This document shows, one piece after another, positions 3,908 through 45,775 of a stretch of 64,000 bases of DNA; the first letter of the stretch is position 1; each line of letters begins with the position of its first letter. The DNA comes from Pseudoflavonifractor sp. Marseille-P3106. GTDB lineage: Bacteria > Bacillota > Clostridia > Oscillospirales > Oscillospiraceae. Both the position numbers and the translations under genes were made by a program. The stretch is taken from the NCBI GenBank assembly GCA_900169975.1, contig LT827126.1:310001-374000 (forward strand), in the 5' to 3' direction. The notes under the pieces were generated by a model that searched no databases, was not told where the DNA came from, and worked only from the letters and a program-made list of their open reading frames with translations.

Positions 3908-4060
3908 TTGACCGCAGAAATTTGTGATGGTATAATAAATCCATAGATTAAGGAAGTATCTAACGCAACACACTACAAATATAATTCAAGACAGCATCTA
4001 CACGTTATCGTGCAGGTGCTGTCTTTTTATATATACACAAACAATTTTTCAAAAAAGGAG
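3908..4060 (+). promoter_or_regulatory. AGGAAGTATC-type leader, copy 1
   Basis: TTGACC (3908-3913) and TATAAT (3931-3936) are 17 bp apart. AGGAAGTATC follows at 3951-3960, about +8 of the transcript. A long stem (3990-4004 with 4009-4023) is then followed by TTTTTATATATACACAAAC and the ribosome site of the next gene. The hairpin plus T run should stop transcription unless it is overcome, so this looks like an attenuator in front of the small-gene block. The 378 bp between the divergent genes hold only this leader and the opposing promoter. Confidence 0.75.
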
Positions 4061-4068
4061 TGAATCAC

Positions 4069-4290
4069 ATGGAAGGTAAGTGCCTTTATAGCTATTGTGG
4101 AGCAGTCACATCGTTCGGGACCATCTTGTCCAACCGTTGGACTGGCCACACATGTGCTGTGTCCGAGGAAAAGGCCCGTAACAACCTGGCTTTTCAGTTC
4201 AAGAAGCAGATGGGCCTGGTATTAGCAGTGCCGGTCTCTCTGCCTGGAAAGGTCGAGCGTCAGAAAGTGAGTGGAGGTAAGCAGTCATGA
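4069..4290 (+). CDS. Small conserved-looking hypothetical protein
   Basis: Starts at ATG 4069, 8 nt after AAAGGAG; an in-frame GTG at 4060 overlaps that ribosome site and is unlikely. The 73-residue product begins MEGKCLYSYCGAVTSFG and has two early cysteines and a basic, amphipathic middle (ARNNLAFQFKKQMGL). I do not recognise a family. It is the first gene behind the leader at 3908 and overlaps the next gene by an ATGA junction, so it opens a translationally coupled operon. Confidence 0.6.
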   Translation: MEGKCLYSYCGAVTSFGTILSNRWTGHTCAVSEEKARNNLAFQFKKQMGLVLAVPVSLPGKVERQKVSGGKQS

Positions 4291-4853
4291 ATCAGTTGCT
4301 GAAGGTTTCCCTGGGGCCGCTTCCGAACATCATCGTCAGCGACCCGAGCTTTAAAGACTCGTCCTGGAATCAGCATGTCATTAACCCGCTTCCTGATGGC
4401 AACTATGAGATGGATGCCTACGCGAAGCCGGTCGACATGGGCCGGGACAGCTATGTCCAGTTTGATTTTCTTGTCCGGCACCTGATTCCTGAGATGGAGC
4501 GGATGCCGTTGGCGAAGCTCTCTCCTAACGGCGACCTCAAGCTGAATGAAAAGCTGCTGGTTATCGGAGAGGCAAGGAAAATCGGCCTGAATGAGCCCAA
4601 ACTCTGCATCTGCACAGTAGATAGGTTCCATCAAGACCCCTTCGGCTATGCGGTCGATACAGCCTGCAGCGGCCGGGTCGGGACGATGCAGACCATCCTA
4701 CTGAAAAGCAAGCAGAGCCTGCTTCCGTTGAAAGAGGAACTGAGGCGGAACCGGACTGGCCTTTATGCCGTCCATATTCAGCTTCAACTGGAGCGATTCC
4801 AGGATGACGCTAACGCCCTCATTCACAAAGTAATTCAAGCACTAAGCGTCTGA
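4287..4853 (+). CDS. Hypothetical protein
   Basis: 188 residues, soluble, with no motif I recognise. The start codon overlaps the stop of the previous gene (ATGA) and has GGAGG 8-12 nt upstream. The N-terminal half contains several Pro-Asn/Asp turns; the C-terminal half (from about residue 100) has a Cys-x-Cys (KLCICTV) and ends in a helical segment. Context is the middle of a run of small co-directional genes of unknown role. Confidence 0.6.
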   Translation: MNQLLKVSLGPLPNIIVSDPSFKDSSWNQHVINPLPDGNYEMDAYAKPVDMGRDSYVQFDFLVRHLIPEMERMPLAKLSPNGDLKLNEKLLVIGEARKIGLNEPKLCICTVDRFHQDPFGYAVDTACSGRVGTMQTILLKSKQSLLPLKEELRRNRTGLYAVHIQLQLERFQDDANALIHKVIQALSV

Positions 4854-4870
4854 TAGGAGGAAAGAAAACC

Positions 4871-5122
4871 ATGGAAAGCATTGTAGATAAAATCCGCTCT
4901 CGAATCGACCTGCTGAACACCCTGTATCCGCACGAGCACGGCCGCTACTATGTCGACCACGAATACGGCGGATATAAGCTCTTTTTCGCCACTGCGTACA
5001 GTGAGGAGAAGTGCTTGTCGGCCCGGATGAAGCCGACCGAGTGTATTCGGATGCTGGACGTGCTCATCCAGGTTGCCGAGCACGAGGCGGACTTCAAGAA
5101 GAAAGGGAGAGATGACCAATGA
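4871..5122 (+). CDS. Small hypothetical protein
   Basis: 83 residues, starting 17 nt after the previous gene with AGGAGGAAAG as ribosome site. It opens with an amphipathic helix (IVDKIRSRIDLLNTLY), then an aromatic, charged stretch (HGRYYVDHEYGGYKLFF), then a second helix. The stop overlaps the next start by ATGA. No family recognised; the small size and acidic/aromatic mix resemble phage or plasmid accessory proteins. Confidence 0.6.
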   Translation: MESIVDKIRSRIDLLNTLYPHEHGRYYVDHEYGGYKLFFATAYSEEKCLSARMKPTECIRMLDVLIQVAEHEADFKKKGRDDQ

Positions 5123-5307
5123 GCCGCTGCGGTTCATGTGACCTGTATTGGCCGTCTGAGGACAAGAACAACTTCGGCGTTACCTGCAGGGGTGACTGCG
5201 GGGTAGAGGAATGCGCAGACAAACTGCAAGACCTTGTGTTCAACCTGAGAGCCGAGCTGGCACGGGTCAAGAGGGATAGCGACCACATCGATAGACAAAA
5301 AAGTTAA
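5119..5307 (+). CDS. Cysteine-rich small protein with coiled-coil tail
   Basis: 62 residues with six cysteines in the first 33 positions (CGSC, then CRGDCGVEEC), suggesting a zinc site. A charged helix follows (about 35-58) with leucine spacing that fits a short coiled coil. It is coupled to the previous gene by ATGA and ends inside the first unit of repeat array C. It is probably a small zinc-ribbon adaptor; there is no evidence for a specific partner. Confidence 0.55.
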   Translation: MSRCGSCDLYWPSEDKNNFGVTCRGDCGVEECADKLQDLVFNLRAELARVKRDSDHIDRQKS

Positions 5308-5345
5308 GTGCTTGAGCGCTTAGGTGCTGTGGTGCTTAAGAACTC
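5306..5345. repeat. 8-bp phased repeat array C (5 units)
   Basis: AAGTGCTT, GAGCGCTT, AGGTGCTG, TGGTGCTT and AAGAACTC follow one another without a break in 8-bp phase. The array overlaps the last two bases of the upstream stop codon and lies 26 bp before the next start. Confidence 0.75.
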
Positions 5346-5370
5346 AAAATCAGAAAAGGAGAAGTGAAGT

Positions 5371-5769
5371 ATGGATAAGACCAATATGGATGGTTTCAAA
5401 AAGACCTGCTTTGGGAAGACGATTGAGGCTGACGGGCAAATCATTTGCGGAAAGCCGAGCATCAACTTGTCGTCTATCCTGACGGTGCTCATCCAGGAGG
5501 CTGGCCGCTGGTGCAGAAGTTATGCCAGCGACCTGTTCATTTACTGGTCCAGCCTGCAAAAGCAGGTGGATGAAGGGACCATTGAGTCTGGTTCACACCT
5601 ATTTGGATTCCGTGAGACTGGGGTTGACGATGAGAAGGCTATCTTCCACCAGTACGCCAATTATGGCTACACACCAGCCCATGAGTATCGGGCCATCTGG
5701 CGGCTGGACGTCAACGTGGATGCTGAGCACAACAAGTTGACCATGGCCCTCTATGAGGTCATCCGCTGA
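5371..5769 (+). CDS. Hypothetical protein
   Basis: 132 residues, preceded by AAAAGGAGAAG. It is soluble and rich in aromatic residues (WCRSYASDLFIYWSSL at about 47-62; YANYGYTPAHEYRAIWRLDV at about 95-114). No catalytic motif is evident and I do not recognise a family. It begins a new sub-block after array C and is followed by a hairpin at 5783-5809. Confidence 0.6.
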   Translation: MDKTNMDGFKKTCFGKTIEADGQIICGKPSINLSSILTVLIQEAGRWCRSYASDLFIYWSSLQKQVDEGTIESGSHLFGFRETGVDDEKAIFHQYANYGYTPAHEYRAIWRLDVNVDAEHNKLTMALYEVIR

Positions 5770-5782
5770 GAACATAACATAT

Positions 5783-5809
5783 GCCGGGATTGGAGTGTCC
5801 AGTCCCGGC
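5783..5809 (+). terminator. Intergenic hairpin, weak or no terminator
   Basis: The 9-bp arms 5783-5791 and 5801-5809 (GCCGGGATT with AGTCCCGGC) pair with one G-T wobble. No T run follows, so it may be a processing or stability element between co-transcribed genes. Confidence 0.45.
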
Positions 5810-5831
5810 CGCTTAAAAAAGGAGATTGCAT

Positions 5832-6794
5832 ATGAAAACAATCAGCACCGCCTACTATGAGAAGATAGCTGAGGCAAAAATGACCTACTGTGCTTTTTGC
5901 GTAAGAGGCTCTAGGCCGTTCTGGGAAGACTGCGTGAACTGCAAAGTGAATCGAATGTTCAAGGCAGTCCAGGATATCATCAAGGAAGAGACAACCCCCG
6001 AGGATGAGGCTGCGGTGGAGCAGACCCGGAATGCTTACGATGGCATCGACTTACCCAAAGAGATGATAAAGTCTCTTGGCAAGGGGCCGAGGACTTCCGA
6101 TGGGTTCCGTACTAGCCCGGTTTTCCAGCTCTATATCACCAATGGAGCGTATCCCGATGTGGGAGTACAGCTCGTTGAGAGCAAGACTGGCTTCCCTGAC
6201 TTCGCCGGTTCTGAGGATGAGGCGTCCAGCCGCTCGGCCGTCTATTACGTGAACTACATCAAGGATGGCGTGCCGTCTTCGTTCCAATTATGGGACCTGA
6301 CATACGGCAGTCTGAAAGACGAGCTGAAATCCTCCCTGGAGCGGATGTTCAACAGGAACATCAATCAGTTATGGGGGATTCAGGCCCTTCCATTCCCGGA
6401 GCGGTATTTCATCACGAGCCGGTCTGCAAAGGAATTGGCCGCTGATATGATGAGCGAGGTGGCATCCTGTCAGGCTTGCATAGACGAATATGGCTGCGTT
6501 TACAGCCAGGAACACTATGTTGGCTGCCTGCGGAACAGCAATTTCACACCTCAGGGGCAGAACACAAGTGGAGGGGTCTATATGAAGCTGGGCAAATGCT
6601 TGCTGAAGAATGCTGGAAAGTATTTCATTGAGACCCGGTGTACGATTTCTCCGATGTTCGTTGATACCCGGCTCGTCAAAGAAATGACGGAGGACAGTGT
6701 TGCCGCAAAGATTTATAGCATCATCTGCTACATTGCGGCCCGTGAGGAAGGAGAGGCCCGTGCGAAGATGGTTAAGGAGGCAGCGGATGATTGA
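5832..6794 (+). CDS. Hypothetical protein with several Cys-x-x-Cys pairs
   Basis: The ATG at 5832 has AAAGGAGA 8 nt upstream; a TTG two codons earlier is rejected. The 320-residue product begins with a likely zinc-binding cluster (CAFC near residue 18 and CVNC near residue 37). A second cysteine-rich stretch (CQACIDEYGC) lies near residue 220. It is soluble and no enzyme motif is recognised. It overlaps the next gene by 8 nt, and its 3' end supplies that gene's AAGGAGG site, so the two are coupled. Confidence 0.6.
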   Translation: MKTISTAYYEKIAEAKMTYCAFCVRGSRPFWEDCVNCKVNRMFKAVQDIIKEETTPEDEAAVEQTRNAYDGIDLPKEMIKSLGKGPRTSDGFRTSPVFQLYITNGAYPDVGVQLVESKTGFPDFAGSEDEASSRSAVYYVNYIKDGVPSSFQLWDLTYGSLKDELKSSLERMFNRNINQLWGIQALPFPERYFITSRSAKELAADMMSEVASCQACIDEYGCVYSQEHYVGCLRNSNFTPQGQNTSGGVYMKLGKCLLKNAGKYFIETRCTISPMFVDTRLVKEMTEDSVAAKIYSIICYIAAREEGEARAKMVKEAADD

Positions 6795-7367: not shown

Positions 7368-7383
7368 GAGGGAGGACATCGCA

Positions 7384-7617: not shown

Positions 7618-7638
7618 GTGAGGGGAAGTAGACAGAAA

Positions 7639-7854: not shown

Positions 7855-7904
7855 TAGATTCAGCTCACTCAAAATTTTTCAAAAGTTTAAGGAGGACATT
7901 TGTT

Positions 7905-8105: not shown

Positions 8106-8161
8106 TATCCAGGGTCCTTCTGACTTCACCGTGGATGTCTAGCTCACCCAACGCTCTTAAA

Positions 8162-8402: not shown

Positions 8403-8552
8403 TTGACGGGTTCATTACTGAATGGTACAATAACTCTATCAGTAAGGAAGTATTTCTACCACAAAAGGCAATCAAATCATCAATTCAAGGCAGTAAATCC
8501 AGTTTGGATTTACTGCCTTTTTATATACACAAACTAAAAATCAAAAAAGGAG
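8403..8552 (+). promoter_or_regulatory. AGGAAGTATC-type leader, copy 2
   Basis: TTGACG (8403-8408) and TACAAT (8426-8431) are 17 bp apart. The motif AGGAAGTATT is at 8445-8454. A perfect 15-bp stem (8487-8501 with 8505-8519) is followed by a T run and ATATACACAAAC, then the ribosome site of the NADAR-HAD gene. Confidence 0.75.
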
Positions 8553-15847: not shown

Positions 15848-18800
15848 TTAATAACCAGTCCGGGGCAGGGTCGGGGTGTAGGGCTTGTAGTTGGAGTACA
15901 CGGAAGTGGTCCACCGTGCGATGGACTGCTGCCAGTACTGGCCGTACAGGCCGCCCACGTCCGCCTTGTTGGTGAACTGGTAGCCGTTGGTGAGCGCGTA
16001 GAGCGTGGTGCCATCAACGGTGGCGTCGGTCAACTGGTGGAAGCCAGAGGGCACGATGCCGAATACCAGCATGAACGAGGTGACATACTCGTTGGAGGCC
16101 AGGCCAAGGGCCGAGGCGGACATATCCAACGTGTAGTTCTGGGCCGTGGACAGGTTGTCATAAGCGGTCTGCCAGTTGCTGTTCAGGTTGGTGGTGTAGG
16201 TCACTTTGTAGTTCTGCGTGGCGCTGTAAGTGCCCGTCACCAGCCGGGTCAGGCGCATGGCGTCCGTCGGGATGGTGTCCCTCCAGTAGAAGCTGTTGAG
16301 GCTGACGCTGGAGGTGTTGGCCACACCGCTGACGGTGTACCGGATGAGGCTGTTGTTCATGACCTGCTGATAGCCGGTCTTCTTGATAGTCACTCCGGTT
16401 GAGATGCTGGGGTCGGAGACCTGAATCTGGACCACCTGGCCCGCGAACTCAAGGTCGGCGGTGAAGGTGTTGGGGTTCAGGCCGTAGTTGGTGGGCGCTG
16501 TCGTCTCCTTCACGGTGTAGATGCCCAGGGGCAGGAGCTTGGAGGAGGCGATGCCGCTGGCGTTGGTCTGGATGGTGTCCACCACGTTGTTGCGCTTGTC
16601 GTAGATGGTGAACACGGCACCGGCCAGCGGGGTGCCAGCGGGCAGGCCGTTGGTGGAGCTGTAGTCGGCGGAGGTCTTGATGACCTGAATCTGGGCGTAC
16701 TCGGCGGTGTTCTCCCACTCAATCATGGCAGTATCGCCGGACTGGACCCAGAAGGACTTGACCTCGTTGTCGAGGATGTAGCCGTCAGCGGCCACGATTT
16801 CCCGGACATAGTACTTGCCGTCCTCCAGGGACTTGTTCAGATGGACATAGCCCTGGTCGTCGGACTCGTACTCGCCGATGGGCGTCATGCTGGAGTCATA
16901 GACCATGAACTTGACGCCCTGGATGCCCTCCTTGGTCACAGAGTCGATTTTGTGGATGAGCATGGAGCCGGAGGCCGTGTTGGTCAGCTCCAGGGTGGTA
17001 GTCTCGCCGTCCTTCACCTCGACCTGCTGGGGCGTGGAGTCGAGCAGGTAGCCGTCAGGGGCCTTGAGCTCGACCACCTCGTACCAGCCGCTGTCCAGCT
17101 CAGAGAGCTGGATGTTGCCGTTGCGGTCGGTGTAGTAGGTGCCGACGAGTTCGCCGTTCATCTTGCGAATCTCGAACTGCGCGCCCTCCAGACGCTCTCC
17201 GGTGTCCTCGTCAATCTTGGTGATGATGAGGCCGCCGATGGGGGTGTCATAGAAGGTGAGGGTCTGGGTGTCGTTGGCCGTCACTTCCACAGTCTGGGAA
17301 GGGGCGTCCAGCAGGTAGCCGTCAGGGGCGGTCTCCTCGGTCACGACGTAGGTGCCGGGCTGGAGGCCGTAGATGACGATTTGACCGTTCCGGTCGGTGG
17401 TGTAGAGGCCGTTGGAGCTGGTCGTCCCGCCGCCCTGGGCCACGAAGGAGCCGTCGGAGGTCGTGACCCGGAAGGTCGCGCCGTAGAGGGGCTCGTTGGT
17501 GAGCTTGTCGCGCTTCTCAATGATGAGAGAGCTCTCGGGGTCATTGTAGAAGGTGAGGGTGTAGGTGCCGCCGCCGTCCACGGCGATGGTCTGCGGGGCC
17601 TCGTCCAGGATGTACCCGTCGGGGGCCTTGGTCTCCCGGACCACATAGGTGCCGGTCTCCAGGCCGGTCAGGGTAATCATGCCGGTCTCGTCAGTGGTGT
17701 AGTAGCCGTTGGAGCCCACCAGGCCGCTGGCGGTGTCGGCCACCTCACCGTAGGAGTTGGTGATGTAGAAGGTGGCACCGGCCAGGTTCTTGCCCGTGGC
17801 GCTGTCCTTCTTGACGATGTTCAGGGTGTTCTGCGGGGTGTCATAGAAGGTGAGGGTCTGGGTGTCGCCCATGGTCAGGCGCACGGTCTGAGAGGGGGCG
17901 TCCATCTCGTAGCCAGCGGGGGCCTTGATTTCCGTCACCACGTAGGTGTCGGCGTCCAGGCCGCTGATGACGATTTGGCCGTTGGAGTCCGTCTCATACT
18001 TGCCGTTGGAGCTGATGGTGCCGTTGTCGCTGATGACGGCGGAACCGCTGGAGTCCGTGACCTCGAAGACAGCGCCCTGGAGGGGCTCCTTCGTCACGGA
18101 ATCACGCTTCTCGATGACGATGGTGCCCTTGGGGGTATCGTAGAAGGTCAGGGTCTGGGTGTCGCCGTTGAGCAGCTTCACCGTCTGGGAGGGTGCGTCC
18201 ATCTCATAGCCCAGAGGGGCCTGAATCTCAGTGACGACGTAGGTGTCCTCCTTCAGGCCGGTGATGACGATTTGGCCCTCGGCGTCGGTGGTGTAGCGGC
18301 CGTTGCTGCTGATGGAGTCGTTGGAGCCCACCACAGCCGCGCCGTCAGAGGTCGTGACCTCGAAGATAGCGCCCTGCAGGGGGTTGCGGGTGATGCTGTC
18401 GCGCTTCTCGATGACCAGGGTCCCCTTGGGGGTGTCGTAGAACGTCAGGGTCTGCGTGTCGCCGCTGTTCATCTTCACCGTCTGGGAGGGTGCGTCCATC
18501 TGGTAGCCCTCAGGTGCCTCCACCTCAGTGACGATGTAGGTGTCCGGCTGCAGGTCCGTGATGACGATTTGGCCGCTGGCGTTGGTGGTGTAGAGCCCGT
18601 TGGAGCTCACCGCCCCGCCCGCGTTGTCCACGACGGTCCCGGCGGAGGTCGTGACCCGGAAGGTCGCGTCCGCCAGAGGCTCATGGGTCACGCTGTCGCG
18701 CTTCTCGATGATGAGGGCACCCTTGGGGGTATCCTCGATGATGACGGTCTGGGTATCGCCGTTGGTGCCGATGACCACGTTGGTCATGGGGCTGTCGATG

Positions 18801-21800
18801 ACGTACCCGTCAGGGGCCTTGATTTCCGTGATGACATAGGCCCCGGGCTGCAGGTTGGTGATGTGGATTTGGCCATTGGCGTCAGTGGTAAAGATACCGT
18901 TCTGCGTCAACGTGCTGTCGCCGATAACGCCGTCCAGGCCCACCTCGCAGCCAGCGGCTGTGGTCAGGCGGAACTGAGCGCCGGGGAGGGTCTCACCTGT
19001 CACGCTGTCGCGCTTCTCGATGATGAGCTCGCCCTTGGGCTGGTTGGCAAAGGTCAGGGCGACCGTTTTGCCAGCCTGGATGACGATGGTCTGGGGCTGG
19101 GTGTCGATGATGTAGCCGTCGGGAGCACGGGTCTCGGTGACGACCACGCTCTTACCGGGCTCCAGGCCGCTGATGAGGATTTCACCGTTGGCGTCGGTGG
19201 TATAGACGCCGTTGCTCTCCCCGATGAGGCTCCCGTCGGCGTACGTCACTTTGAACTCAGCGCCCGCCAACGTCACGCTGGGGTTGACGGAGCAGACCTT
19301 CTTGATGAGCAGGTTGCCGTCCGGGGCGTTGTCGAATTCCACAGTGATGACGTCCTGGTCCTTGCCGGAGATGTACACCGTCTGGGCGGCGGTGACGATG
19401 TTGTAGCCGTCGGCCGCCTCGATTTCCTCGACGATGTAGGTGCCAGCCTCAAGCTGGGTCCAGATGACGGAGCCGTTGGTGCCGGTGGTCTTCTGGCCGA
19501 TGACCGTACCGCCGGTGCCGCTGGTGCCGCCCAGGTAACGCAGTTGGAAGGTACAGCCGGGGACGGGGTTGCCGTTCACGCTGTCCTTCTTCAGCACCAC
19601 GATAGCGGACAGGGGCGTGTTCTCAAAGGTGAGGGACTTCACGTCGTCGCCCGCCAGGTAGATGCTCTGGGTCGCGGGGTCCTTGATTTGGTAGCCGTCC
19701 GGGGCCTCCAGCTCCGTGACCTGATACCAGCCGGGCTTCAGGCGGTCAGTGTCCGTCTTGCCCAGGTTGATTTGGCCGTTCTCGTCGCTCCAGTAGATGC
19801 CCAGGTCCTCCAGGGAACCGGCTGCGGGGCCGTTCCCGGCGTACCAGATTTGGAACTTCGCGCCCTCCACGGGGCCGCCCACGATGCTGTCCTTCTTATA
19901 GATGGTCAGCTCGGGGGTGCGCTCGTTCTCCAGACGCAGGGTGTAATACGCTTTGCCGTCGCCGCTGGCCCCTTCCTCCAGGAGCACGTCATGGGGCGTG
20001 GAATCCAGGATATAGCGGTTGGGGACAAAGGTCTCGGTCACGGTGTACCAGCCAGCGTCCAGGTCAGGAATGAAGATTTCGCCGTTCTCGTCGGTGGTGT
20101 AGGTGCCGATATCGGAGCCGTCCTTCACCTTGACGTTGAACTTGACGCCCTCGATGCCCTTCCCGTCGGTGTCCACCTTCTGGATGAGCAGGCCGGGCCG
20201 CTGCTGGTTGAAGAACTCCAGGGTGGAGGTCTTATTGGGCTCCAGCGTCACGGTCTGGGGGACGTCGTTGAGGATGTAGTTCCCAGGGACACGGATTTCC
20301 GTGACCTTGTAGGAACCGGCCTCCAGGTGCTCGATGAAGATTTCGCCGTTCTCGTCCGTGGTGGCCTCCTCGGAGTAGCTGCCGTCGATTTTCTCAATCA
20401 GGAAGGTGACGCCGGGCACAGGCTCGCCGGTCAGCTTATCCTTCTTGATGATTCTCAGGCCGGGCTCTGTGGAGTTCTCGAACACCAGCTCGCGCTCAGC
20501 TCCGGCCGCGAGGTCGATTGTCTGACGATTATTGGTGTCCAGGATGTACGGGTCAGGAACGGACAGCTCTGTGACCTCATAGGTGCCGGTAGGCAGGCCA
20601 GTCAGAGTGTAGGTGCCGTCTGCACCAGTTGTGATGGTGTTTTGGTAACTGACATTGATGCCGCGAATCTCGAAAGTGGTGTTAGGCACAGGCTCACGAG
20701 TGGCTGCATCAATCTTCTTGATAGTCAACTCAGGGCTCTTGAAGTCCTTCGCTGTTACCACGATGGTCTCTTCGCCTTGGATATCTGCTTGGTCGACATG
20801 GACACCGACTGGAGTGCTCAGTTTCGCATACCCATCGGGAGCCTCTGTTTCGATGAAATAATAGAAGCCCTCAGTTACATTGGGAACTGTGATGGTGCCC
20901 TGAGCGTCTGTTGCCTGGGTCCCAATCAGTTGGCCGTCTTTGAAGATGTTAAAGATAGCACCTTCCAGAGGCTGGTTACTTTCGTCAACCTTCTTGAGTT
21001 GAACCTTAACTTTGGAGTCGTTTTGGAACACGAGTTGGATATTGCTCTTACCGTCCCAGTAGAACTCCTGCATGTTCTCATCGGGGTCGTCACTCAGGGT
21101 ATAGCCCTCAGGAACACCGACCTCTTCGGCAATATAGGAGCCGATAGGGAGGTCCTCAAAGTTGAAGTCGTCTGCGCTGACGTAGCCGCCTTCGCCGGTA
21201 ACGACGCGGGTGGGACCGTATCCATTGTCAATGCCCCGAATCTCGATGACTGCACCAGCCAGGCCGACAGTCGGGTTGTCCTTATCGACCTTGCGAATGC
21301 TGCCGCTTCCTGTGATTTCTGCATCATCATAGAAGGTGAAGGTGGCGCTTGCAGTGTCGCCCACGCCAACGGTCACATATTTAGTTGATGTGTCACTAAT
21401 TGTGTAACCAGGAGGCGCTTTGATTTCAGTAACTCCATACGTTCCGGGGCCGAAACCATTTTCACTTTCATCGATTGTAATGAGGCCGTTTTCATCCGTG
21501 GTGTAGACCTTATCAAAGGAACCTCCAATAGCAGTCACCTGGAACTGAGCACCCTGAAGCCCTTTGTTTTGGTTGCTTGAATCGAATTTTCGGATAATCA
21601 ATTCGCAGGGGTTTTCAATATCTCCTGTTGGCTCATAAATGCCAACAATGATGGACTGGATTTTGCTGGGGTCTGGATGGGAGTCGCTACCCTCATCGGC
21701 GTAGTTGTACATGTAAATGCTCCAGTCGCCCCACCAGTCTACGTGGTTGACGATGTACTCTGCAGCATCATAACAACTCCAGTCGCCATCATAGATGTCA

Positions 21801-22390
21801 TCATAATGAGTTGCCCAGCTATAACCCGCATCGTGATAAGCATTGACTACAAGCATACGCTGGGTCGCTACTTCTTGAATCCAGCCCTCACGGTCTGTCT
21901 CATAATCGGGAAGCTCACCAATTTGGGCCAGCCATACGCACCCCTGGAACCATCCCTGAGCCCATGTTCTTTGGAACTCATCGTATGGCGTCAGGTTTTG
22001 TGCTTGGCCTGCAGCACTGAATTTGCCATAGGCATAGGAGTAGTAATGGGACAGCAAGAGTTTAATGTTTTTGTCTGTAATCTCTTGTGGAGTGTCCCAA
22101 ACATCGCCAATCAACGAGTTACCCATCTCTGCACTATGGTCGCCACAGAAGCCAACAGTTTCAGCCCCTGCGACATTCATGGTAAACTCGTGGATATAGC
22201 AATCCTTAAGTGGCCCGTAATTGTATGTGATGGGGTTGTCGACGTGATAGTCTGCGTTTTTCAGCGTTACCGTGCCCGGCACGGATGTTGATTCAGCCGC
22301 GAAAGCCGCCGTAGGAATGAGGCCCACGATACACACGACAGCGAGAAACATCGCCACAATACGGGTGCGAAGAGATGCCGTTCTCTTCAT
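15848..22390 (-). CDS. Giant SpaA/Cna_B-repeat surface adhesin, LPRTG at the very C-terminus
   Basis: About 2180 residues. I prefer the second Met (MKRTASLRTR) because AAAGGA abuts the first one. A signal peptide ends in PTAAFA-A. The N-terminal domain (about 40-260) has FCGDHSAEMG and a WFQGCVWLAQ segment that could form a Cys-Gln thioester, as in Gram-positive TED adhesins. Then come about 18 SpaA-type prealbumin-like repeats of 85-105 residues, each ending in a TEIKAPDGY-like motif and most opening with an IEKRDS or IKKID-like strand; such domains usually form Lys-Asn isopeptide bonds. A separate C-terminal domain follows. The last residues are PTLPRTGY: a sortase motif with no hydrophobic helix or basic tail. 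It probably mediates cell contact during transfer (inference). Confidence 0.9.
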   Translation of the reverse strand: MKRTASLRTRIVAMFLAVVCIVGLIPTAAFAAESTSVPGTVTLKNADYHVDNPITYNYGPLKDCYIHEFTMNVAGAETVGFCGDHSAEMGNSLIGDVWDTPQEITDKNIKLLLSHYYSYAYGKFSAAGQAQNLTPYDEFQRTWAQGWFQGCVWLAQIGELPDYETDREGWIQEVATQRMLVVNAYHDAGYSWATHYDDIYDGDWSCYDAAEYIVNHVDWWGDWSIYMYNYADEGSDSHPDPSKIQSIIVGIYEPTGDIENPCELIIRKFDSSNQNKGLQGAQFQVTAIGGSFDKVYTTDENGLITIDESENGFGPGTYGVTEIKAPPGYTISDTSTKYVTVGVGDTASATFTFYDDAEITGSGSIRKVDKDNPTVGLAGAVIEIRGIDNGYGPTRVVTGEGGYVSADDFNFEDLPIGSYIAEEVGVPEGYTLSDDPDENMQEFYWDGKSNIQLVFQNDSKVKVQLKKVDESNQPLEGAIFNIFKDGQLIGTQATDAQGTITVPNVTEGFYYFIETEAPDGYAKLSTPVGVHVDQADIQGEETIVVTAKDFKSPELTIKKIDAATREPVPNTTFEIRGINVSYQNTITTGADGTYTLTGLPTGTYEVTELSVPDPYILDTNNRQTIDLAAGAERELVFENSTEPGLRIIKKDKLTGEPVPGVTFLIEKIDGSYSEEATTDENGEIFIEHLEAGSYKVTEIRVPGNYILNDVPQTVTLEPNKTSTLEFFNQQRPGLLIQKVDTDGKGIEGVKFNVKVKDGSDIGTYTTDENGEIFIPDLDAGWYTVTETFVPNRYILDSTPHDVLLEEGASGDGKAYYTLRLENERTPELTIYKKDSIVGGPVEGAKFQIWYAGNGPAAGSLEDLGIYWSDENGQINLGKTDTDRLKPGWYQVTELEAPDGYQIKDPATQSIYLAGDDVKSLTFENTPLSAIVVLKKDSVNGNPVPGCTFQLRYLGGTSGTGGTVIGQKTTGTNGSVIWTQLEAGTYIVEEIEAADGYNIVTAAQTVYISGKDQDVITVEFDNAPDGNLLIKKVCSVNPSVTLAGAEFKVTYADGSLIGESNGVYTTDANGEILISGLEPGKSVVVTETRAPDGYIIDTQPQTIVIQAGKTVALTFANQPKGELIIEKRDSVTGETLPGAQFRLTTAAGCEVGLDGVIGDSTLTQNGIFTTDANGQIHITNLQPGAYVITEIKAPDGYVIDSPMTNVVIGTNGDTQTVIIEDTPKGALIIEKRDSVTHEPLADATFRVTTSAGTVVDNAGGAVSSNGLYTTNASGQIVITDLQPDTYIVTEVEAPEGYQMDAPSQTVKMNSGDTQTLTFYDTPKGTLVIEKRDSITRNPLQGAIFEVTTSDGAAVVGSNDSISSNGRYTTDAEGQIVITGLKEDTYVVTEIQAPLGYEMDAPSQTVKLLNGDTQTLTFYDTPKGTIVIEKRDSVTKEPLQGAVFEVTDSSGSAVISDNGTISSNGKYETDSNGQIVISGLDADTYVVTEIKAPAGYEMDAPSQTVRLTMGDTQTLTFYDTPQNTLNIVKKDSATGKNLAGATFYITNSYGEVADTASGLVGSNGYYTTDETGMITLTGLETGTYVVRETKAPDGYILDEAPQTIAVDGGGTYTLTFYNDPESSLIIEKRDKLTNEPLYGATFRVTTSDGSFVAQGGGTTSSNGLYTTDRNGQIVIYGLQPGTYVVTEETAPDGYLLDAPSQTVEVTANDTQTLTFYDTPIGGLIITKIDEDTGERLEGAQFEIRKMNGELVGTYYTDRNGNIQLSELDSGWYEVVELKAPDGYLLDSTPQQVEVKDGETTTLELTNTASGSMLIHKIDSVTKEGIQGVKFMVYDSSMTPIGEYESDDQGYVHLNKSLEDGKYYVREIVAADGYILDNEVKSFWVQSGDTAMIEWENTAEYAQIQVIKTSADYSSTNGLPAGTPLAGAVFTIYDKRNNVVDTIQTNASGIASSKLLPLGIYTVKETTAPTNYGLNPNTFTADLEFAGQVVQIQVSDPSISTGVTIKKTGYQQVMNNSLIRYTVSGVANTSSVSLNSFYWRDTIPTDAMRLTRLVTGTYSATQNYKVTYTTNLNSNWQTAYDNLSTAQNYTLDMSASALGLASNEYVTSFMLVFGIVPSGFHQLTDATVDGTTLYALTNGYQFTNKADVGGLYGQYWQQSIARWTTSVYSNYKPYTPTLPRTGY

Positions 22391-22425
22391 TACGCATATC
22401 ATTCCTTTCTATTGTCAAAGTACAC

Positions 22426-24113: not shown

Positions 24114-24142
24114 ATTATACCATATGATAATGAATTAGTCAA
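24114..24142 (-). promoter_or_regulatory. Promoter of the SLH-CAP gene
   Basis: TTGACT and TATAAT on the minus strand with a 17-bp spacer and ATGG extension, 90 bp upstream of the start. Confidence 0.8.
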
Positions 24143-24250: not shown

Positions 24251-24373
24251 TAAAAAGAGGGACCTGGAGCGGTTTCCGGTCCCTGTTGGTATGCGTAAGC
24301 ACTATCCTGTGTGATGCAGTGAATACTTCCTTGTCGTTGAGAGTATCTTACCACATAGAATGAATTGGTGCAA
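24251..24373 (-). ncRNA. Orphan AGGAAGTATC-type leader (copy 3), possible short RNA of about 90 nt
   Basis: On the minus strand, TTGCAC and TAAGAT are 17 bp apart (24345-24373). AGGAAGTATT follows at 24331-24322, then a hairpin (AGGGACC with GGTCCCT, 24258-24264 and 24278-24284) and the tail CTTTTTATAG. The design and spacing match the other seven leaders. No ribosome site or gene follows; the next feature is array G and then the upstream region of the SLH-CAP gene. It is either a leader whose gene was lost or a free-standing RNA. Confidence 0.6.
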
Positions 24374-24472
24374 ATTTCGTGGTTGGGGAGGGGGGAGCAT
24401 CGGTTGCGGTGCGGTAGAAGGGGGGGCGCATTCCTGCGACATGGCTGGCCGCCTGCAGTCACAAATAAAAGC

Positions 24473-24522: not shown

Positions 24523-24660
24523 TTGAAAAGTTCACAAACGCATGGTACAATACTTATATCACTAAGGAAGTATCAGTTTATTGGACATATTCTGGGCTGT
24601 CCCGAGAATTCCAGGGACGGCCGAAAGGCTTTCCCTGTTTTGATAACAAAATTTAAAGCG
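24523..24660 (+). promoter_or_regulatory. AGGAAGTATC-type leader, copy 4, with two exclusive hairpins
   Basis: TTGAAA (24523-24528), TACAAT (24546-24551), spacer 17. The motif is at 24565-24574. Hairpin 1 pairs 24595-24603 with 24614-24622. Hairpin 2 pairs 24613-24622 with 24627-24636, ends in GTTTTG and reuses the right arm of hairpin 1, so the two exclude each other. This looks like an attenuator switch ahead of the GNAT gene. Confidence 0.7.
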
Positions 24661-26237: not shown

Positions 26238-26385
26238 TTGAAAAGTTCATAAATGCGTGGTACAATATCCATATCATCAAGGGAGTATCGGTTCATTCGT
26301 TATATAGGGGTTGCCCCTGAGAAAATTCCAGGGGCAGCCAAGAGGCTTTCCCTGTTTGATATATTAAATTAAAACAAGGAAAGTG
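26238..26385 (+). promoter_or_regulatory. AGGAAGTATC-type leader, copy 5, with two exclusive hairpins
   Basis: TTGAAA (26238-26243), TACAAT (26261-26266), spacer 17; motif AGGGAGTATC at 26280-26289. Hairpin 1 pairs 26309-26318 with 26330-26339. Hairpin 2 pairs 26330-26339 with 26344-26353. The layout is the same as in copy 4 although stem bases differ, which supports a real RNA structure. Confidence 0.7.
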
Positions 26386-30035: not shown

Positions 30036-30188
30036 TTGCGCACAGACCGAATCCATGCTACAATGTTAGTGTTGTAACTGAGGAAGTATCTATCACCTAA
30101 GACATCATAGAGATTTTCGTACGAGCAGGCATCAGGCTGATTTGGCCGGGCCTGCTTTTTTGCTGTCATTTTATCGAGGAGGAGAAGA
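30036..30188 (+). promoter_or_regulatory. AGGAAGTATC-type leader, copy 6
   Basis: TTGCGC (30036-30041), TACAAT (30059-30064), spacer 17; motif AGGAAGTATC at 30081-30090. The terminal hairpin AGCAGGC (30124-30130) with GCCTGCT (30150-30156) is followed by six T, then the dUTPase ribosome site. Confidence 0.72.
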
Positions 30189-41148: not shown

Positions 41149-41350
41149 TTGACTTACTTTCCAGCGCGTGGTAGCATAGTTCTATAAAACAAGGAAGTAT
41201 CTTAATTTAATTATACATTTTCATCGGTATTACAAGGCAGTTGTTCTGGATTTCCAGAGCGGCTGCCTTTTTATATATACACAAACTTTTAAAGATGCCC
41301 GTAAGAACATAAGACCCTGTACGAATCCAGGGCAGGCGGGCGAAAGGAGT
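41149..41350 (+). promoter_or_regulatory. AGGAAGTATC-type leader, copy 7
   Basis: TTGACT (41149-41154), TAGCAT (41172-41177), spacer 17; motif AGGAAGTATC at 41192-41201. A 17-bp stem (41234-41250 with 41253-41269) leads into TTTTTATATATACACAAAC. This controls the MoxR-VWA module. The 351-bp gap holds terminator, array and leader only. Confidence 0.75.
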
Positions 41351-41357
41351 AAGTATT

Positions 41358-41564: not shown

Positions 41565-43354
41565 TGGCGACCCATGCCTTGAATGTTCAGGCTGCGAGTT
41601 GGAATTCCGACCTTTTCCCGGCGGAAATCTCTACGTGGAGTTCGACTCTGAATGACCCAAACTCGCTGTCTCCTCTTAGAATGAGTCCAAACGGCACAGT
41701 AACAGGCGCACAACGCACTATTCTGAGCGTCGACGCAGCACGGGCCATCATCGCTTACATCAAAAGAGGCGACGCTGATATGGCCCTTGTGGACACGGGG
41801 AACGGCATGACCTACTCGGCGGAAAAGACCCTGCCGGATGGGACAACACTCGTTGCAACAGTGAATCGGCCGTCATTCCAAAGCAACACTTTAAATCTCA
41901 GGGCCTCTATCGTAACGGCAGCGGGTGCGTATACCCCAATCCCGCCTCTTTCCAGGAACTCTACTGTCGATTTATCCCCCGTCTTTCTATGCCTGCTGGC
42001 GCACGCAATCGAGTCCTATCAAACCGTTTCAGAAGATATCGATTTGCTTGCAGCACACTATGCAACGACAGGAAAGTTTGACGGTGCGGCTGTCAACTTC
42101 CGCAGAATTGCGGATTCGCTGGTATTCATTCTAAATGAAAAACTCTTTGACGTCGCAGTCCCCGGGAGCAATATCGATATGCTGGCACAGCAGTCCGTAA
42201 CGATGGGCAGTTTGAACGGAGTCACTATTTGTGGGACTCCTAACATTCTGGCTGAAATCAATGGAGTGAAACGGGCAACTGCAAGAACAATGACTTTTGC
42301 AGAGGCGAAGGCAAAATTCAAGTCTTTTGCTCAGAAGCATGAGTGGAGCGATGAAGAACGGGCACTTATCCCGGTGTTTCCCGAGGACTACAAGGTTCCT
42401 CAGGAAGCAATCAAAATCGCGGACCTCTATGTGGCTACGCGAAACAGCCGTAGGCCCATGAACAACTTCATGTGGCGTGGCGTTACCTCCTATGGTAAAT
42501 CCAGCGGTGTGGAGCTGATGGCGGCATTCCTTGAAATCCCGCTCCTGCGGATGACCTGTTCGACCTCGATGGAGACCCAGGACTTCCTGTCAAACTTTGT
42601 CCCGGACAATGGCCCTCAAGGAAGCATGGCAGGGGAGCTGCCGTCCTTCACGGAGATTTCCGCAGACCCGGCTACCGCATACCAGATGCTGACCGGCATT
42701 GAGGATGATAATGCGACCTGCGATATGTGCCTGAAGGCATATGCAGAAGCCGCTGTCGCCCGGGCTGGGAATGGGTCTGCCCGATTCAAGCATGTAGAGA
42801 GCAATTTCGTTAAGGCTCTGACCCGTGGCTATATCGTGGAAATCCAGGAAATCAGCCGAATCAAAGACGCCGGTGTGCTGGTCGGACTCAATGAGTATGA
42901 CCGGCCAGGCGCGATTATCCCCCTGGTGGACGGCTCCTTTAAGCGCCGCCACCCGGATGCGATGGTCGTGTACACCGATAACGTCGGCTATGCATCCTGC
43001 CGGGCGATTGACCCGTCAGTCCTGCGCCGGATGTCCATTATCATCGACTCCTACGACATGCCGCGAGAGGACGTTATTGCCCGCGTGCTCTACAATACGG
43101 ATTTCCCTGACAGCTCGATGCTTGACCAAATGTACGACGTCTGGTCCGCAATCCAGGAATACTGCCAGGAGCACGACATCTCTGATGGTACTGTCTCGGT
43201 GACAGAACTGGAGATGTGGGCGCTCGCCGTGAAAGTGGATAACATGAGCAACATCAAGGATTACTGCCGTGACTGCGTTGTTGCAAAAGCGACCTCAGAC
43301 CGGCAGGAGCAGGAAGCAATTATGGCGGATGTTGTGGATATCCGTCTGAGTTAA
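41564..43354 (+). CDS. MoxR/CobS-like AAA+ ATPase with altered Walker B
   Basis: 596 residues. Residues 1-290 are a unique N-terminal region. The AAA+ core starts near 300: Walker A GVTSYGKS (306-313), Walker B position IVEIQEI (about 424-430, where D-E is replaced by Q-E), sensor-1-like VVYTDNVGY, and an arginine-finger region DPSVLRRMSIIIDSYDMP. This layout matches MoxR and CobS/RavA chaperone ATPases that pair with VWA proteins to remodel targets or insert metals, and a VWA gene follows. The missing Walker B Asp may lower hydrolysis. A hairpin separates it from the VWA gene. Confidence 0.78.
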   Translation: MATHALNVQAASWNSDLFPAEISTWSSTLNDPNSLSPLRMSPNGTVTGAQRTILSVDAARAIIAYIKRGDADMALVDTGNGMTYSAEKTLPDGTTLVATVNRPSFQSNTLNLRASIVTAAGAYTPIPPLSRNSTVDLSPVFLCLLAHAIESYQTVSEDIDLLAAHYATTGKFDGAAVNFRRIADSLVFILNEKLFDVAVPGSNIDMLAQQSVTMGSLNGVTICGTPNILAEINGVKRATARTMTFAEAKAKFKSFAQKHEWSDEERALIPVFPEDYKVPQEAIKIADLYVATRNSRRPMNNFMWRGVTSYGKSSGVELMAAFLEIPLLRMTCSTSMETQDFLSNFVPDNGPQGSMAGELPSFTEISADPATAYQMLTGIEDDNATCDMCLKAYAEAAVARAGNGSARFKHVESNFVKALTRGYIVEIQEISRIKDAGVLVGLNEYDRPGAIIPLVDGSFKRRHPDAMVVYTDNVGYASCRAIDPSVLRRMSIIIDSYDMPREDVIARVLYNTDFPDSSMLDQMYDVWSAIQEYCQEHDISDGTVSVTELEMWALAVKVDNMSNIKDYCRDCVVAKATSDRQEQEAIMADVVDIRLS

Positions 43355-43360
43355 GTTACA

Positions 43361-43391
43361 AGCGGAGCCTGAAGTTTCAGGCTCCGCTTTC
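43361..43391 (+). terminator. Hairpin between the ATPase and VWA genes
   Basis: Perfect 13-bp arms 43361-43373 and 43376-43388, a very short loop and a weak T tail. It may attenuate rather than block transcription, lowering VWA expression relative to the ATPase. Confidence 0.6.
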
Positions 43392-43406
43392 TGAAAGGAG
43401 TGCAAT

Positions 43407-45485
43407 ATGCCAAAAAGAGATATTGCGGCTCGGCTACGTCAGATGACGGCCGAGCAGTGTGCCACCCTGGACCCGCAGGAGATATTTACCTCTCCCGAGT
43501 TTGCAGAACACCTGCAGGGCCTGGTGAATGAGACCATGAAGATTGGAGGCAAGGCGACTAGCGAAATCTCCGTCAATGTGGTTACTACGCCGAACTCTCC
43601 ACCTGGTTGGACAGACGGCAACGACATCTATGTCAATACCATCAATTCCGTATCCAGCCACTACACCTTGCCTTTGGAACAGTTTATCACACTTCGTGGC
43701 ATCTGCTTCCATGAGTGCAGTCATGTACTCTACTTGGACTTCAACGAGGAGAAAAAGGCGCTGAAGTCTATTGGAGATGGCAAATTGTATGGCGAACTTC
43801 TTGTCCCACAGACTGCGGAAGATGATTTGATGATGCACGAAATGGAGGATGCCTTGGCTGACCCTCTGTACCGTCCTATCTTCCAGCAGGTCTTTTCTGA
43901 CGTCACTAATACGATAGACGACCCCCATGATGAGGGGAAAATCATCCGTCGGTTTGGCGGCATCGTGGAACAGGGCATTGTCTTGGCCCGCGAGTCCCTG
44001 CTTCGTTCCTTCGATTATGCGGAGAACATCGTCGCAGGAAAGGGCTCAGACCTGGAAAAAATATATAGCCTTATGCTGGAGTACGCCCGGTTTGAAACCA
44101 TCATGATGCGGGACCAGGACGCCTGCTTGAAAACTCAGCCGCTGGTCCAGTGCGTTGTCTCCCTGGCCAAGCCGATTGCCACCGCCCGTTGGACGGATGA
44201 CATGAAGGTGCGGTTCGCGCAAATCAATGAGATTATGCTGAAGCTCTGGCCCTATATTAAGGCTGAGTTGGAAAAGCAGAAACAGCAAAAGAAACAGGAG
44301 AAGCAAAATCAACAGGGGGACGATGATTCTAAGAATCCGCAGGGCAATCAGTCTGGAGGCAATTCCACGCAGGAAGCGGTACAGAATATTTTGGACCAAC
44401 TCCAGAAGGTATCCCAAAATCAGAACGTCTCTGCTCACCCGAACCGGCGCACTTCCTCCACGGAAGCTGTCAAGAATCGGCAGGCCGCTCGGGCTGGGAA
44501 GCAACCAGCCAGTGGGGAGAAGACCCGTCCAGTGAATCAGGACAGTGCAATGAAGTCTGCCCAGGCCGCCTTGGACGCTGTTGCGAAGAAAGTCGCAGAA
44601 CGGATTGCGGCGGCAGCCATGGAGCGGGACTTGACATCAAACCTGATGATGGAGATAGACCAGACCGCTATCGGCTCCAGTCACAGCGGCAAAATATGTG
44701 CAAAGCGTGATTTAGAGGTAGATGCCAGTGACATCAAGTTGTACGAGAGGCAGATGGAGGATGTAAAGGCATACTCCAAGAGGCTCCAGAGACGGATGTC
44801 TGATGCTCTGCGTGACATGCAGGAAGGTGGGGTGGCCCATCACAAGCAGTTTGGCAACCGTATCGAGGCCCAATATGCCTACCGCCCGGACCAGAAGTTC
44901 TATGCGAACAAAAAACTGCCGCAGGACTGGCCCTCTATGGCAATCTCCATCCTGGTAGACCTCTCCACCTCCATGCGAGGGGAGCGGCTGAACTCTGCAA
45001 TGAAGGCAACGATGCTGCTCTATGACTTCGCCACCGGCTTAGGTATTCCTGTATTTGTAGCTGGACACAATGCCGTGTTTGGTCAGGTCAACTATCAAAT
45101 CATGGCGGACTTTGAGAAGGTGAGTGAGAACGATAAGTACCGGCTTGCGCACATGTACCTGAGCGGGTGCAATCGGGACGGAGCGGCCATTGAGGTCTCT
45201 TCGTCGCTATTGGCTAAACGGAGCGAAGATGTCAAACTCCTGTTCATTATCTCGGACGGGCAGCCTAACGATGGAAACTATAAGGGAGAAACCGCCAAGA
45301 AGGATATCCAGGACATCCTGACCAAGTACCGCCGCAAGGGTATTACGACCTTTGCCACGGCAATCGGGTCAGACAAGGATAAAATCAAAGCAATCTATGG
45401 GGACGGGTATCTGGACATCACAGATTTGACTCAATTCCCCAAGCAACTGACCAACATGGTCGTGAAGCGCATCATGCGCTATTGA
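43407..45485 (+). CDS. HExxH metallopeptidase-like - VWA domain protein (CobT-like)
   Basis: 692 residues. The N-terminal region contains FHECSHVLYLD (His102-Glu103, His106), an HExxH zinc-peptidase motif, with an acidic HEMEDALAD helix about 40 residues later that could give the third ligand. A Gln/Lys/Ser-rich linker (about 290-370) follows. The C-terminal VWA domain (about 510-692) has the metal site DLSTS at 518-522 and FIISDGQPND near 616. CobT of cobaltochelatase and other MoxR partners have a VWA; an intact HExxH in the same chain suggests a protease or metal-handling unit controlled by the ATPase. Ribosome site AAAGGAG. Substrate unknown. Confidence 0.78.
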   Translation: MPKRDIAARLRQMTAEQCATLDPQEIFTSPEFAEHLQGLVNETMKIGGKATSEISVNVVTTPNSPPGWTDGNDIYVNTINSVSSHYTLPLEQFITLRGICFHECSHVLYLDFNEEKKALKSIGDGKLYGELLVPQTAEDDLMMHEMEDALADPLYRPIFQQVFSDVTNTIDDPHDEGKIIRRFGGIVEQGIVLARESLLRSFDYAENIVAGKGSDLEKIYSLMLEYARFETIMMRDQDACLKTQPLVQCVVSLAKPIATARWTDDMKVRFAQINEIMLKLWPYIKAELEKQKQQKKQEKQNQQGDDDSKNPQGNQSGGNSTQEAVQNILDQLQKVSQNQNVSAHPNRRTSSTEAVKNRQAARAGKQPASGEKTRPVNQDSAMKSAQAALDAVAKKVAERIAAAAMERDLTSNLMMEIDQTAIGSSHSGKICAKRDLEVDASDIKLYERQMEDVKAYSKRLQRRMSDALRDMQEGGVAHHKQFGNRIEAQYAYRPDQKFYANKKLPQDWPSMAISILVDLSTSMRGERLNSAMKATMLLYDFATGLGIPVFVAGHNAVFGQVNYQIMADFEKVSENDKYRLAHMYLSGCNRDGAAIEVSSSLLAKRSEDVKLLFIISDGQPNDGNYKGETAKKDIQDILTKYRRKGITTFATAIGSDKDKIKAIYGDGYLDITDLTQFPKQLTNMVVKRIMRY

Positions 45486-45493
45486 ACATGCAA

Positions 45494-45530
45494 AGAGGCT
45501 CGTACCGCTATGCGGTGCGGGCCTCTTCAT
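45494..45530 (+). terminator. Intrinsic terminator
   Basis: Fifteen-bp arms 45494-45508 and 45512-45526 with two G-T wobbles, followed by a T-containing tail that runs into array L. Confidence 0.75.
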
Positions 45531-45532
45531 TT

Positions 45533-45572
45533 AGGCACTTAGGTGAGTAGGTGCTTAGACACTTAAGCACCT
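45533..45572. repeat. 8-bp phased repeat array L (5 units)
   Basis: AGGCACTT, AGGTGAGT, AGGTGCTT, AGACACTT and AAGCACCT in phase. AGGTGCTTA and TAAGCACCT pair perfectly over 9 bp. It ends 47 bp before the -35 of leader copy 8. Confidence 0.8.
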
Positions 45573-45619
45573 AGTGAAAATGGAGTGACCAGTAGAAGAA
45601 TACCTACCATCTCGCAAAA

Positions 45620-45775
45620 TTGACCAATAAATTTTAACGTGGTACAATAATCCTATCAAATAAGGGAGTATCTCATTCACAAAACATCTAAATCATCGAA
45701 GATTCAAGACAGCTTTCCTAATTACATGGAGGGCTGTCTTTTTATATATATGCCACATCTCAAAAAGGAGGAATT
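45620..45775 (+). promoter_or_regulatory. AGGAAGTATC-type leader, copy 8
   Basis: TTGACC (45620-45625), TACAAT (45643-45648), spacer 17; motif AGGGAGTATC at 45663-45672. Stem 45707-45718 with 45728-45739, then a T run and ATATATA, then AAAAAGGAGG for the next gene. Confidence 0.75.

Follow-up and report, generated by a model that had tools for sequence, protein, structure and literature searches.

What is the function of eight closely similar promoter leaders that stand before operons of different content in a single 64,000-nucleotide (nt) stretch of Pseudoflavonifractor sp. Marseille-P3106 DNA? The stretch (here the window; contig LT827126.1, C20 below, 1,025,722 bp, positions C20:310,001-374,000) carries all eight leaders that an initial annotation, made from the sequence alone, had reported, and the differing content of the operons behind them is as that annotation described. 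In each leader an extended sigma-A promoter is followed by an 11-nt core motif, AAGGAAGTATC, and then by a hairpin with a T-rich stretch. The explanation favoured here, tentatively and with confidence that falls a little short of even, is that each leader acts as a promoter-coupled module for transcription attenuation within a single regulon, and that at these modules a trans-acting factor would license read-through by antitermination.

The family of eight is real but larger than first noticed. When 404 kb of C20 were scanned for GG[AG]AGTAT, and sites with a sigma-A promoter just upstream were retained by eye, 30 leader copies were obtained between C20:255,480 and 478,028. One is on the minus strand and 29 are on the plus strand, and all of them lie inside one element of this genome. 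In C20:255-489 kb the pattern TTG...-N16-18-T....T-N10-15-motif has 28 plus-strand matches and one minus-strand match, compared with a mean of 0.017 and a maximum of 1 in 60 first-order Markov resamplings of these 234 kb. Moreover, the 12-mer WAAGGRAGTATY occurs 11 times in the 3.12-Mb genome, always within the element and always on one strand; the reversed-pattern control gave one occurrence per strand in the whole genome. With a profile of the promoter-plus-motif region, for which 150 of the 829 genome-wide candidates were scored, all 30 leaders were recovered and none fell below 24.8 bits, although two incomplete matches at promoters of a second class (class II, see below) scored alongside the weakest leader, at 25.5 and 24.9 bits. 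The same search gave a weak 31st candidate at C20:289384 (23.6 bits), which has motif, hairpin and T5, but with the T5 only ~47 nt past the motif and no clear gene behind it. A three-mismatch search returned other promoter-like sites, of which only 289429 was judged by eye to be a leader candidate, in agreement with the profile search.

The window copies are as follows; terminators were scored without gaps, which penalises bulged stems and long loops, and the cut-off was set at 18.

3908-4042, plus strand: leader 1; promoter 3908-3936, motif AAGGAAGTATC 3950-3960, terminator stem-loop 3989-4024, T-run and TATATATACACAAAC tail.
8403-8534, plus strand: leader 2, preceding a NADAR/NT5C gene (Pfam); motif 8444-8454, terminator stem-loop 8488-8518, tail.
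24259-24374, minus strand: leader 3, the sole minus-strand copy; motif 24322-24332, hairpin 24259-24283 (score 15, under the cut-off); downstream are a class II promoter at 24142 (minus) and then an SLH/CAP gene.
24523-24641, plus strand: leader 4; motif 24564-24574, terminator hairpin 24612-24637 with four T only, overlapping alternative hairpin upstream.
26238-26357, plus strand: leader 5, preceding a Transposase_31 (YhgA-like) gene; motif 26279-26289, hairpin 26329-26354 with three T only (under the cut-off), overlapping alternative hairpin upstream of it.
30036-30163, plus strand: leader 6, preceding a dUTPase gene; motif GAGGAAGTATC 30080-30090, bulged stem-loop at about 30123-30157 and then a T-run (score 12, under the cut-off).
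41149-41286, plus strand: leader 7, preceding 68-aa, 596-aa and VWA/CobT genes; motif 41191-41201, terminator stem-loop 41235-41268, tail.
45620-45754, plus strand: leader 8, preceding 306-aa, ERF and primase-like genes; motif 45662-45672, terminator stem-loop 45707-45739, variant tail.

The leaders are ~130 bp in size, have near-consensus promoters and conform to the consensus AATTTGACN-N16/17-ATGGTAcaAT-N12/13-(C/T)AAGGAAGTATC. In these leaders (class I) the promoter-spacer columns hold 0.02-0.7 bits, compared with 2.0 for those of the motif core; since the copies were collected by this core, the invariance of the GG[AG]AGTAT columns is in part a product of the selection. Outside the collection word, the preceding A is present in 30/30 copies and the following C in 23/30. 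In the window the motif first described, A[AG]GG[AG]AGTAT[CT], is exact in seven of the eight copies, the copy at 30036 reading GAGGAAGTATC, and the 17-bp promoter spacer attributed to all eight is found in six, the copy at 30036 being scored at 16 bp (TGCGCA) and the minus-strand copy at 18 bp (TTTGCA). The gap between the -10 box and the motif is 13 bp in 19 leaders, 12 in seven, 11 in two, and 14 and 15 in one each (26/30 at 12-13 bp). For the copies in the window this gap, given as 14-17 bp by the initial annotation, measures 12-15 bp. If transcription starts 7 nt past the -10 box, the motif would begin at +7 or +8, in keeping with the +8 originally proposed, and would reach +18. The linker from motif to hairpin is A-rich, G-poor (12% G) and unconserved, and the combination of a fixed promoter distance with a variable linker suggests that DNA or RNA of the start region is read in an early elongation complex, rather than as a mobile nut-like site.

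Beyond the linker comes a T-run of about 4-7 nt, at a distance of 66-80 nt from the motif start in 28/30 leaders. A TATATA tail is present in 22/30 leaders, TATATACACAAAC being exact in 14/30, and the tail ascribed to four window copies is indeed common to them. A ribosome site and start codon follow 102-184 nt past the motif GG in the 29 plus-strand leaders, and at 102-122 nt in 25 of them. This last observation bears on the proposal that the terminated leaders are themselves trans-acting small RNAs with a shared 5' seed, GGAAGUAU, for which the narrow leader length and the position of the motif near the 5' end would speak. Against it stand these regularly placed gene starts; moreover, reverse matches of the 12-mer number zero in the genome, and in the searched 404 kb a 10-nt complement is confined to the minus-strand leader and to one site beyond the element, at 522,558. 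We regard this proposal as very improbable. Even less credence is given to the motif as a Shine-Dalgarno-like standby site or leader-peptide signal in a translation-coupled attenuator. The motif 12-mers do pair with what we take to be the 16S tail sequence at -6.6 to -8.4 kcal/mol, energies of -6 and -8 being reached by 7% and 2% of random 12-mers, respectively. However, an ATG, GTG or TTG at usable distance is found in 3/30 leaders only, and the peptides that would result are unrelated, and so this candidate was not supported.

A hairpin followed by a T-rich stretch was located in all 30 leaders, with scores of up to 31. Scores of at least 18 were reached in 24/30 leaders, compared with 1.5% of 600 random stretches and none of 29 motif-free sigma-A-like promoters of the element. 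Within the window the terminator-like hairpin that had been claimed for all eight copies passes the cut-off in five (3908, 8403, 24523, 41149 and 45620) and falls below it in three, at 26238 (0), 30036 (12) and 24373 on the minus strand (15), although the last two still have a stem and then T5-6. Folding relative to shuffled sequences was far better for window leaders 1, 2, 7 and 8 (z of -5.1 to -8.6) and only moderately so for leaders 4 and 5 (z of -2.3 and -3.1).

The stem base of the hairpin is conserved and the distal stem is variable. Across the 22/30 stems that could be registered, 284/288 positions are paired, whereas swapping arms from one leader to another leaves 17-72% of the inner and 91% of the outermost positions paired. 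The initial report of stems whose sequences differ while pairing is retained is thus confirmed; the covarying structure is, however, simply the terminator, and the motif does not belong to any shared structure. RNAalifold returned no structure from a MAFFT alignment of the leaders, in which the stems are out of register. In folds of the 30 leaders the pairing probability of the motif averages 0.50 and its partners vary from copy to copy; the leaders therefore do not look like a structured riboswitch-type RNA. Inspection of these folds by eye revealed no shared upstream hairpin or alternative pairing besides the terminator, and an attenuator based on alternative structures was rejected as the general mechanism. 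Two leaders, 24523 and 26238 (334566 and 336281 on C20), do combine short U-tracts (4 and 3) with an overlapping, mutually exclusive upstream hairpin; these classical-attenuator-like pairs occupy window positions 24600-24641 and 26317-26356, and none was seen by eye in the other 28 leaders.

Paralogous leaders have several blocks in common, as would be expected if one promoter cassette had recently been copied and the likeness were due to descent only. The conservation is patchy, however, with promoter boxes, motif, stem base and tail kept and linker, promoter spacer and distal stem not, and descent on its own appears a highly doubtful explanation.

The element carries a second family of promoters, class II, with the sequence TTGAYTAATATAATGATAAATGGTATAATATT and a conserved A+T-rich spacer, which is found just behind terminators of the transfer region. 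Its members in the window are listed here.

49024-49055, plus strand: class II promoter in the transfer region, with no motif and no leader terminator.
52445, 57693, 58524 and 30693, plus strand: further class II promoters.
24142, 22576 and 3880, minus strand: further class II promoters.

When up to two mismatches were allowed, 28 class II sites were found genome-wide, all within C20:240,308-479,759, with no control matches. One of them (476,539) belongs to leader 476581, which is a hybrid in that it combines a class II-like promoter with the motif and a bulged hairpin followed by T5; the other class II promoters are without the motif. Terminators were compared on 29 class II promoters of the plus strand, taken at up to three mismatches and without those of leaders: none has a leader terminator of score 18 or more, and the median 5' untranslated region is 32 nt. 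The suggestion of a plasmid-wide control is thus no more than half correct, since the ~30 leaders across the element are matched by about as many class II promoters that lack both the motif and the leader terminator. If genes are assigned to the nearest upstream promoter, those behind class II promoters include transfer genes, SLH surface proteins, ParA, Csd1, a sigma factor, ligase and topoisomerase, and those behind leaders include NrdD, NADAR/NT5C, dUTPase, ERF with a primase-like protein, UvrD, C5 methylase, YqaJ-RecD2, an HD protein, a protein like the C-terminal domain of the RNA polymerase alpha subunit (alpha-CTD) and many small unknown genes. This split is descriptive, carries no statistical test and ignores terminators inside the assigned runs. 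The class II sites are perhaps under a common regulator.

The presence of a terminator in most leaders, together with a motif that is tied to the promoter and absent from the terminator-free promoters, points to conditional, or licensed, read-through. As far as can be judged from sequence, a polymerase that starts at a leader promoter would meet the terminator-like hairpin 75-90 nt later and by default would make a short RNA and stop. The 11-nt motif may be the loading or recognition site of a trans-acting, probably element-encoded factor, which would turn the early elongation complex terminator-resistant by way of the nascent 5' RNA or the exposed non-template strand. About 30 operons, with many DNA-metabolism and small unknown genes among their contents, could in this manner be switched on together, perhaps with a timing role for the factor. 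Since the motif lies at a fixed promoter distance, only polymerases started at the leader promoter are perhaps licensed, and the leader terminator may also halt stray transcription from upstream operons. In its most far-reaching form the proposal would define a new class of antitermination, in which an element factor reads the 11-nt motif within the first ~18 transcribed nt only if it is promoter-positioned, with class II promoters running transfer and maintenance; the element would then follow a two-programme transcription plan for 250 kb of mobile DNA with its own sigma factor and alpha-CTD-like protein. This is conceivable but, in our estimation, unlikely.

Several observations weigh against licensed read-through. 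A terminator is found just upstream of 16/29 class II promoters and of 10/29 plus-strand leaders, a modest difference, so that upstream terminators do not by themselves separate the classes and insulation alone is insufficient to do so. Six leaders lie under the terminator cut-off, namely 298413 (17), 454990 (16), 334330 on the minus strand (15), 340082 (12), 476581 (11) and 336281 (0); several of these have bulged stems or long loops, and 336281 instead has only T3. The weak separation and these six failures slightly lower our confidence in the favoured explanation and in its most far-reaching form. The T-runs are short (exactly 5 nt in 16/30 leaders and 4 nt in 4/30), and the terminators may consequently leak. 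The strong internal terminators of the transfer region were rejected as support for processive read-through, as class II promoters stand right behind at least six of them.

A dedicated factor was likewise not found. The NusG-domain profile PF02357, which would miss a paralogue too diverged for it, has a single match in the whole genome, on another contig and none on the element; this match is read as part of a secE-nusG-rplK-rplA cluster, and a NusG paralogue of the LoaP-RfaH type was rejected on that basis. CsrA-regulated leaders were rejected too, PF02599 having no match in the genome (it was found in 3/14 controls). No antitermination family was among the best 25 families listed when 166 plus-strand proteins of 60-345 aa were compared with Pfam and PHROGs.

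These negative searches fit a second explanation, in which the motif alone, as RNA or DNA, makes the host polymerase resistant in the way of put or canT RNAs; the operons would then always be on, and the terminators would only block transcription drifting in from neighbours. The fixed place of the motif near the RNA 5' end suits such constitutive resistance, and so do the 19/29 plus-strand leaders without a terminator of at least 18 just upstream of the promoter. Known RNA antiterminators are longer, structured RNAs, and an 11-nt motif without shared structure would be very small for one. Moreover, a polymerase passing from upstream would transcribe the motif too, unless promoter context is required, and upstream terminators are just somewhat commoner at class II promoters (16/29). 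On balance constitutive resistance is considered unlikely, if by no means negligible.

A further possibility is that the motif is a DNA element, an operator or promoter extension bound before or during initiation by, for example, an element regulator or sigma factor, the hairpin serving mainly to set mRNA 5'-end stability or translation. Fixed promoter spacing favours this, and the element encodes a sigma-70 factor, a 123-aa protein with an alpha-CTD domain and helix-turn-helix regulators. Against it, the motif is asymmetric, stability does not need a U-tract directly behind the stem, the sigma gene is itself closely preceded by a class II promoter, and the hybrid copy, too, has both the motif and the hairpin; we judge a DNA element to be improbable. 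These proteins, together with a ProQ-C-like protein of the element, are also candidates for the antitermination factor. The sigma-70 factor (C20:414640-416034; L019:640-2034) is 464 aa long and comprises regions 2 and 4 behind an extended N-terminal portion; it is this gene that a class II promoter directly precedes. The 123-aa protein (C20:300472-300843), downstream of leader 300358, matches the RNA polymerase alpha-CTD domain PF03118 at 1.1e-16 and has no plasmid or phage match covering 80% of its length.

No Rfam family was matched by the leaders scanned, in line with the initial annotation, which recognised no described family. Rfam covariance models gave no match in the window at gathering scores and none at E<=1 on leader 8; on six further 20-kb stretches they returned 13 tRNAs and one HEARO RNA, none on a leader. 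A riboswitch, T-box, EAR or other Rfam leader was accordingly rejected for the 28/30 leaders that these scans took in, the two in stretch L018 having been left out.

Licensed read-through has precedents, which were counted in favour of the antitermination reading. AlpA opens terminators lying between a promoter and the first gene, and AlpA, like Q as described there, has its binding element between -35 and -10 (PMC7969949); LoaP acts on leader terminators and uses a UNCG hairpin (PMC12691694); and conAn of pLS20 and canT of Tn916 mediate antitermination in Gram-positive conjugative elements, on one long transfer operon each (PMC8955417, PMC11658703). The repeated regulatory sequence EGeRS1 is described as 400-600 bp long, with many inverted repeats and no strong sigma-A promoter, and EGeRS2 as working through a repressor (PMC8708921).

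The leaders are like the Q/AlpA systems (phage lambda/21 Q; Pseudomonas aeruginosa AlpA) in having a terminator just past the promoter and before the first gene (at least 18 in 24/30), a recognition site fixed relative to the promoter and more than one operon (two for AlpA). Unlike those systems, they show little conservation between -35 and -10, and their conserved site falls beyond the presumed start; general scans identified no Q/AlpA homologue, no search by name having been made. LoaP and RfaH, both NusG paralogues, also pair a leader signal with a leader terminator before operons, and LoaP acts in Gram-positive bacteria, but the element has no NusG-domain match and the 30 leader folds, examined by eye, contain no UNCG-type or other shared hairpin besides the terminator. 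The motif presumably matches the RfaH ops core at six of nine positions (GG--GTA-C). With conAn and canT the leaders share antitermination, here proposed, in a Gram-positive conjugative element; they are set apart from them, by description, in that ~30 dispersed operons carry a short motif, and in that much of the transfer region is under class II promoters, which at least six terminators there precede. The EGeRS1/2 sequences of pLS20-family plasmids are alike in being repeated before several variable operons of one element, whereas the leaders, at ~130 bp with a strong promoter and one terminator, are unlike EGeRS1 as it is described. Overall the leaders look like members of a promoter-loaded antitermination class, while fitting the full definition of none of the families compared. 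Within the open-licence literature searched, nothing describing this motif or leader family was found.

The initial annotation took the leaders to be plasmid-borne. In this assembly they ride instead on an integrated element inside host DNA, and, as far as gene content and composition can tell, this is a giant integrative conjugative element rather than a free plasmid, because transfer-apparatus proteins, a recombinase and foreign composition occur together in the host replicon. The element is ~250 kb long (about 235-490 kb of C20) and has ~52% G+C (44-56% in 8-kb windows), with a step at its edges to 62-66% in the left-hand and 61-63% in the right-hand neighbouring windows; at 506-522 kb the G+C content is low again, at 54%. 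It encodes VirD4-, VirB4-, PrgI- and type IV secretion system pilin-like proteins (the PrgI and pilin matches being under curated cut-offs), a second TraG-like protein, a CHAP/lysozyme protein, ERF recombinase and, at its right edge, a serine recombinase, as well as RecD2, YqaJ, C5 methylase, topoisomerase, dUTPase, ParA, NAD-dependent ligase, NrdD, Csd1 and tRNAs. Twelve of the tRNA genes lie near the right end (C20:479931-485381; L022:5931-11381) and one more is at L019:2404-2476. At C20:249223-251855, Csd1 (CRISPR-associated) and a preceding 235-aa gene sit behind a class II promoter, and for this reason the Cas genes may be element cargo. A HEARO RNA directly 5' of an RRXRR-HNH gene (L019:10644-12239; C20:424644-426239) marks a possible guide-RNA nuclease locus, the gene being presumably IscB-like. 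A 2184-aa SpaA-repeat surface protein is encoded at window positions 15848-22402 on the minus strand.

Outside this genome the family was seen only in a fragment of the same element. An exact motif-plus-tail scan of genome contigs found one stretch, L030, from an Intestinimonas metagenome-assembled genome (MAG), in which 5.5 kb are 93.4% identical to the right part of the element and two leaders are retained. In L030:1-3582 a stretch 97% identical to the SpaA-repeat region adjoins the element's right part in inverted order, which suggests rearrangement. Among 400 genomes of the bacterial family, only that of the window has more than three copies of the 12-mer, and the class II pattern was found in two, the window's own and G287, which is apparently the same MAG as L030 and belongs to a different genus of the family. 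VirB4 relatives occur in 47/400 genomes, the window's own included (best 41-47% identity), and 4-5.5-kb stretches around 29 of them contained no leaders. A profile search of 384 genomes of the order recognised no family, 70 others having hits at E<=0.001 with three each at most; as no more than 14 candidates per genome were scored, so that 14/30 copies were reported in the genome of the window itself, this search may overlook weak relatives. Of 19 outside loci inspected from it, three contain GG[AG]AGTAT and two have a downstream terminator of at least 18, none having both, and the best outside match (G730, 35 bits) was rejected as the gene's own ribosome site. A look-alike in another genus of the family, G128:C1:174958, has a promoter, AAAGAAGTGTC overlapping a terminator hairpin (score 26) and then a ribosome site; no further copies were recognised in the 280 kb examined. 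Viral contigs gave no matches with two leader patterns, or in protein scans with the sigma factor and one leader gene, and plasmids gave no DNA match to two stretches of the window. A 247-kb plasmid of Subdoligranulum, on which VirB4, ligase and RecD2 have distant relatives, was rejected as a relative, having no comparable start-region word: its best start-region 8-mer occurs at 4/216 promoters, compared with 24/229 on the element.

The antitermination systems found in print for Gram-positive conjugative elements (conAn, canT) each serve a single long operon. If the explanation favoured here is true, a regulon of ~30 leaders, all with a shared start-region motif tied to the promoter and with terminators of their own, would represent a novel means of gating an entire element. 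The leader is also a compact reporter of ~130 bp for finding the factor and for asking if antitermination loads from the initially transcribed region, and the contrast with class II promoters on the same element makes that question directly testable.

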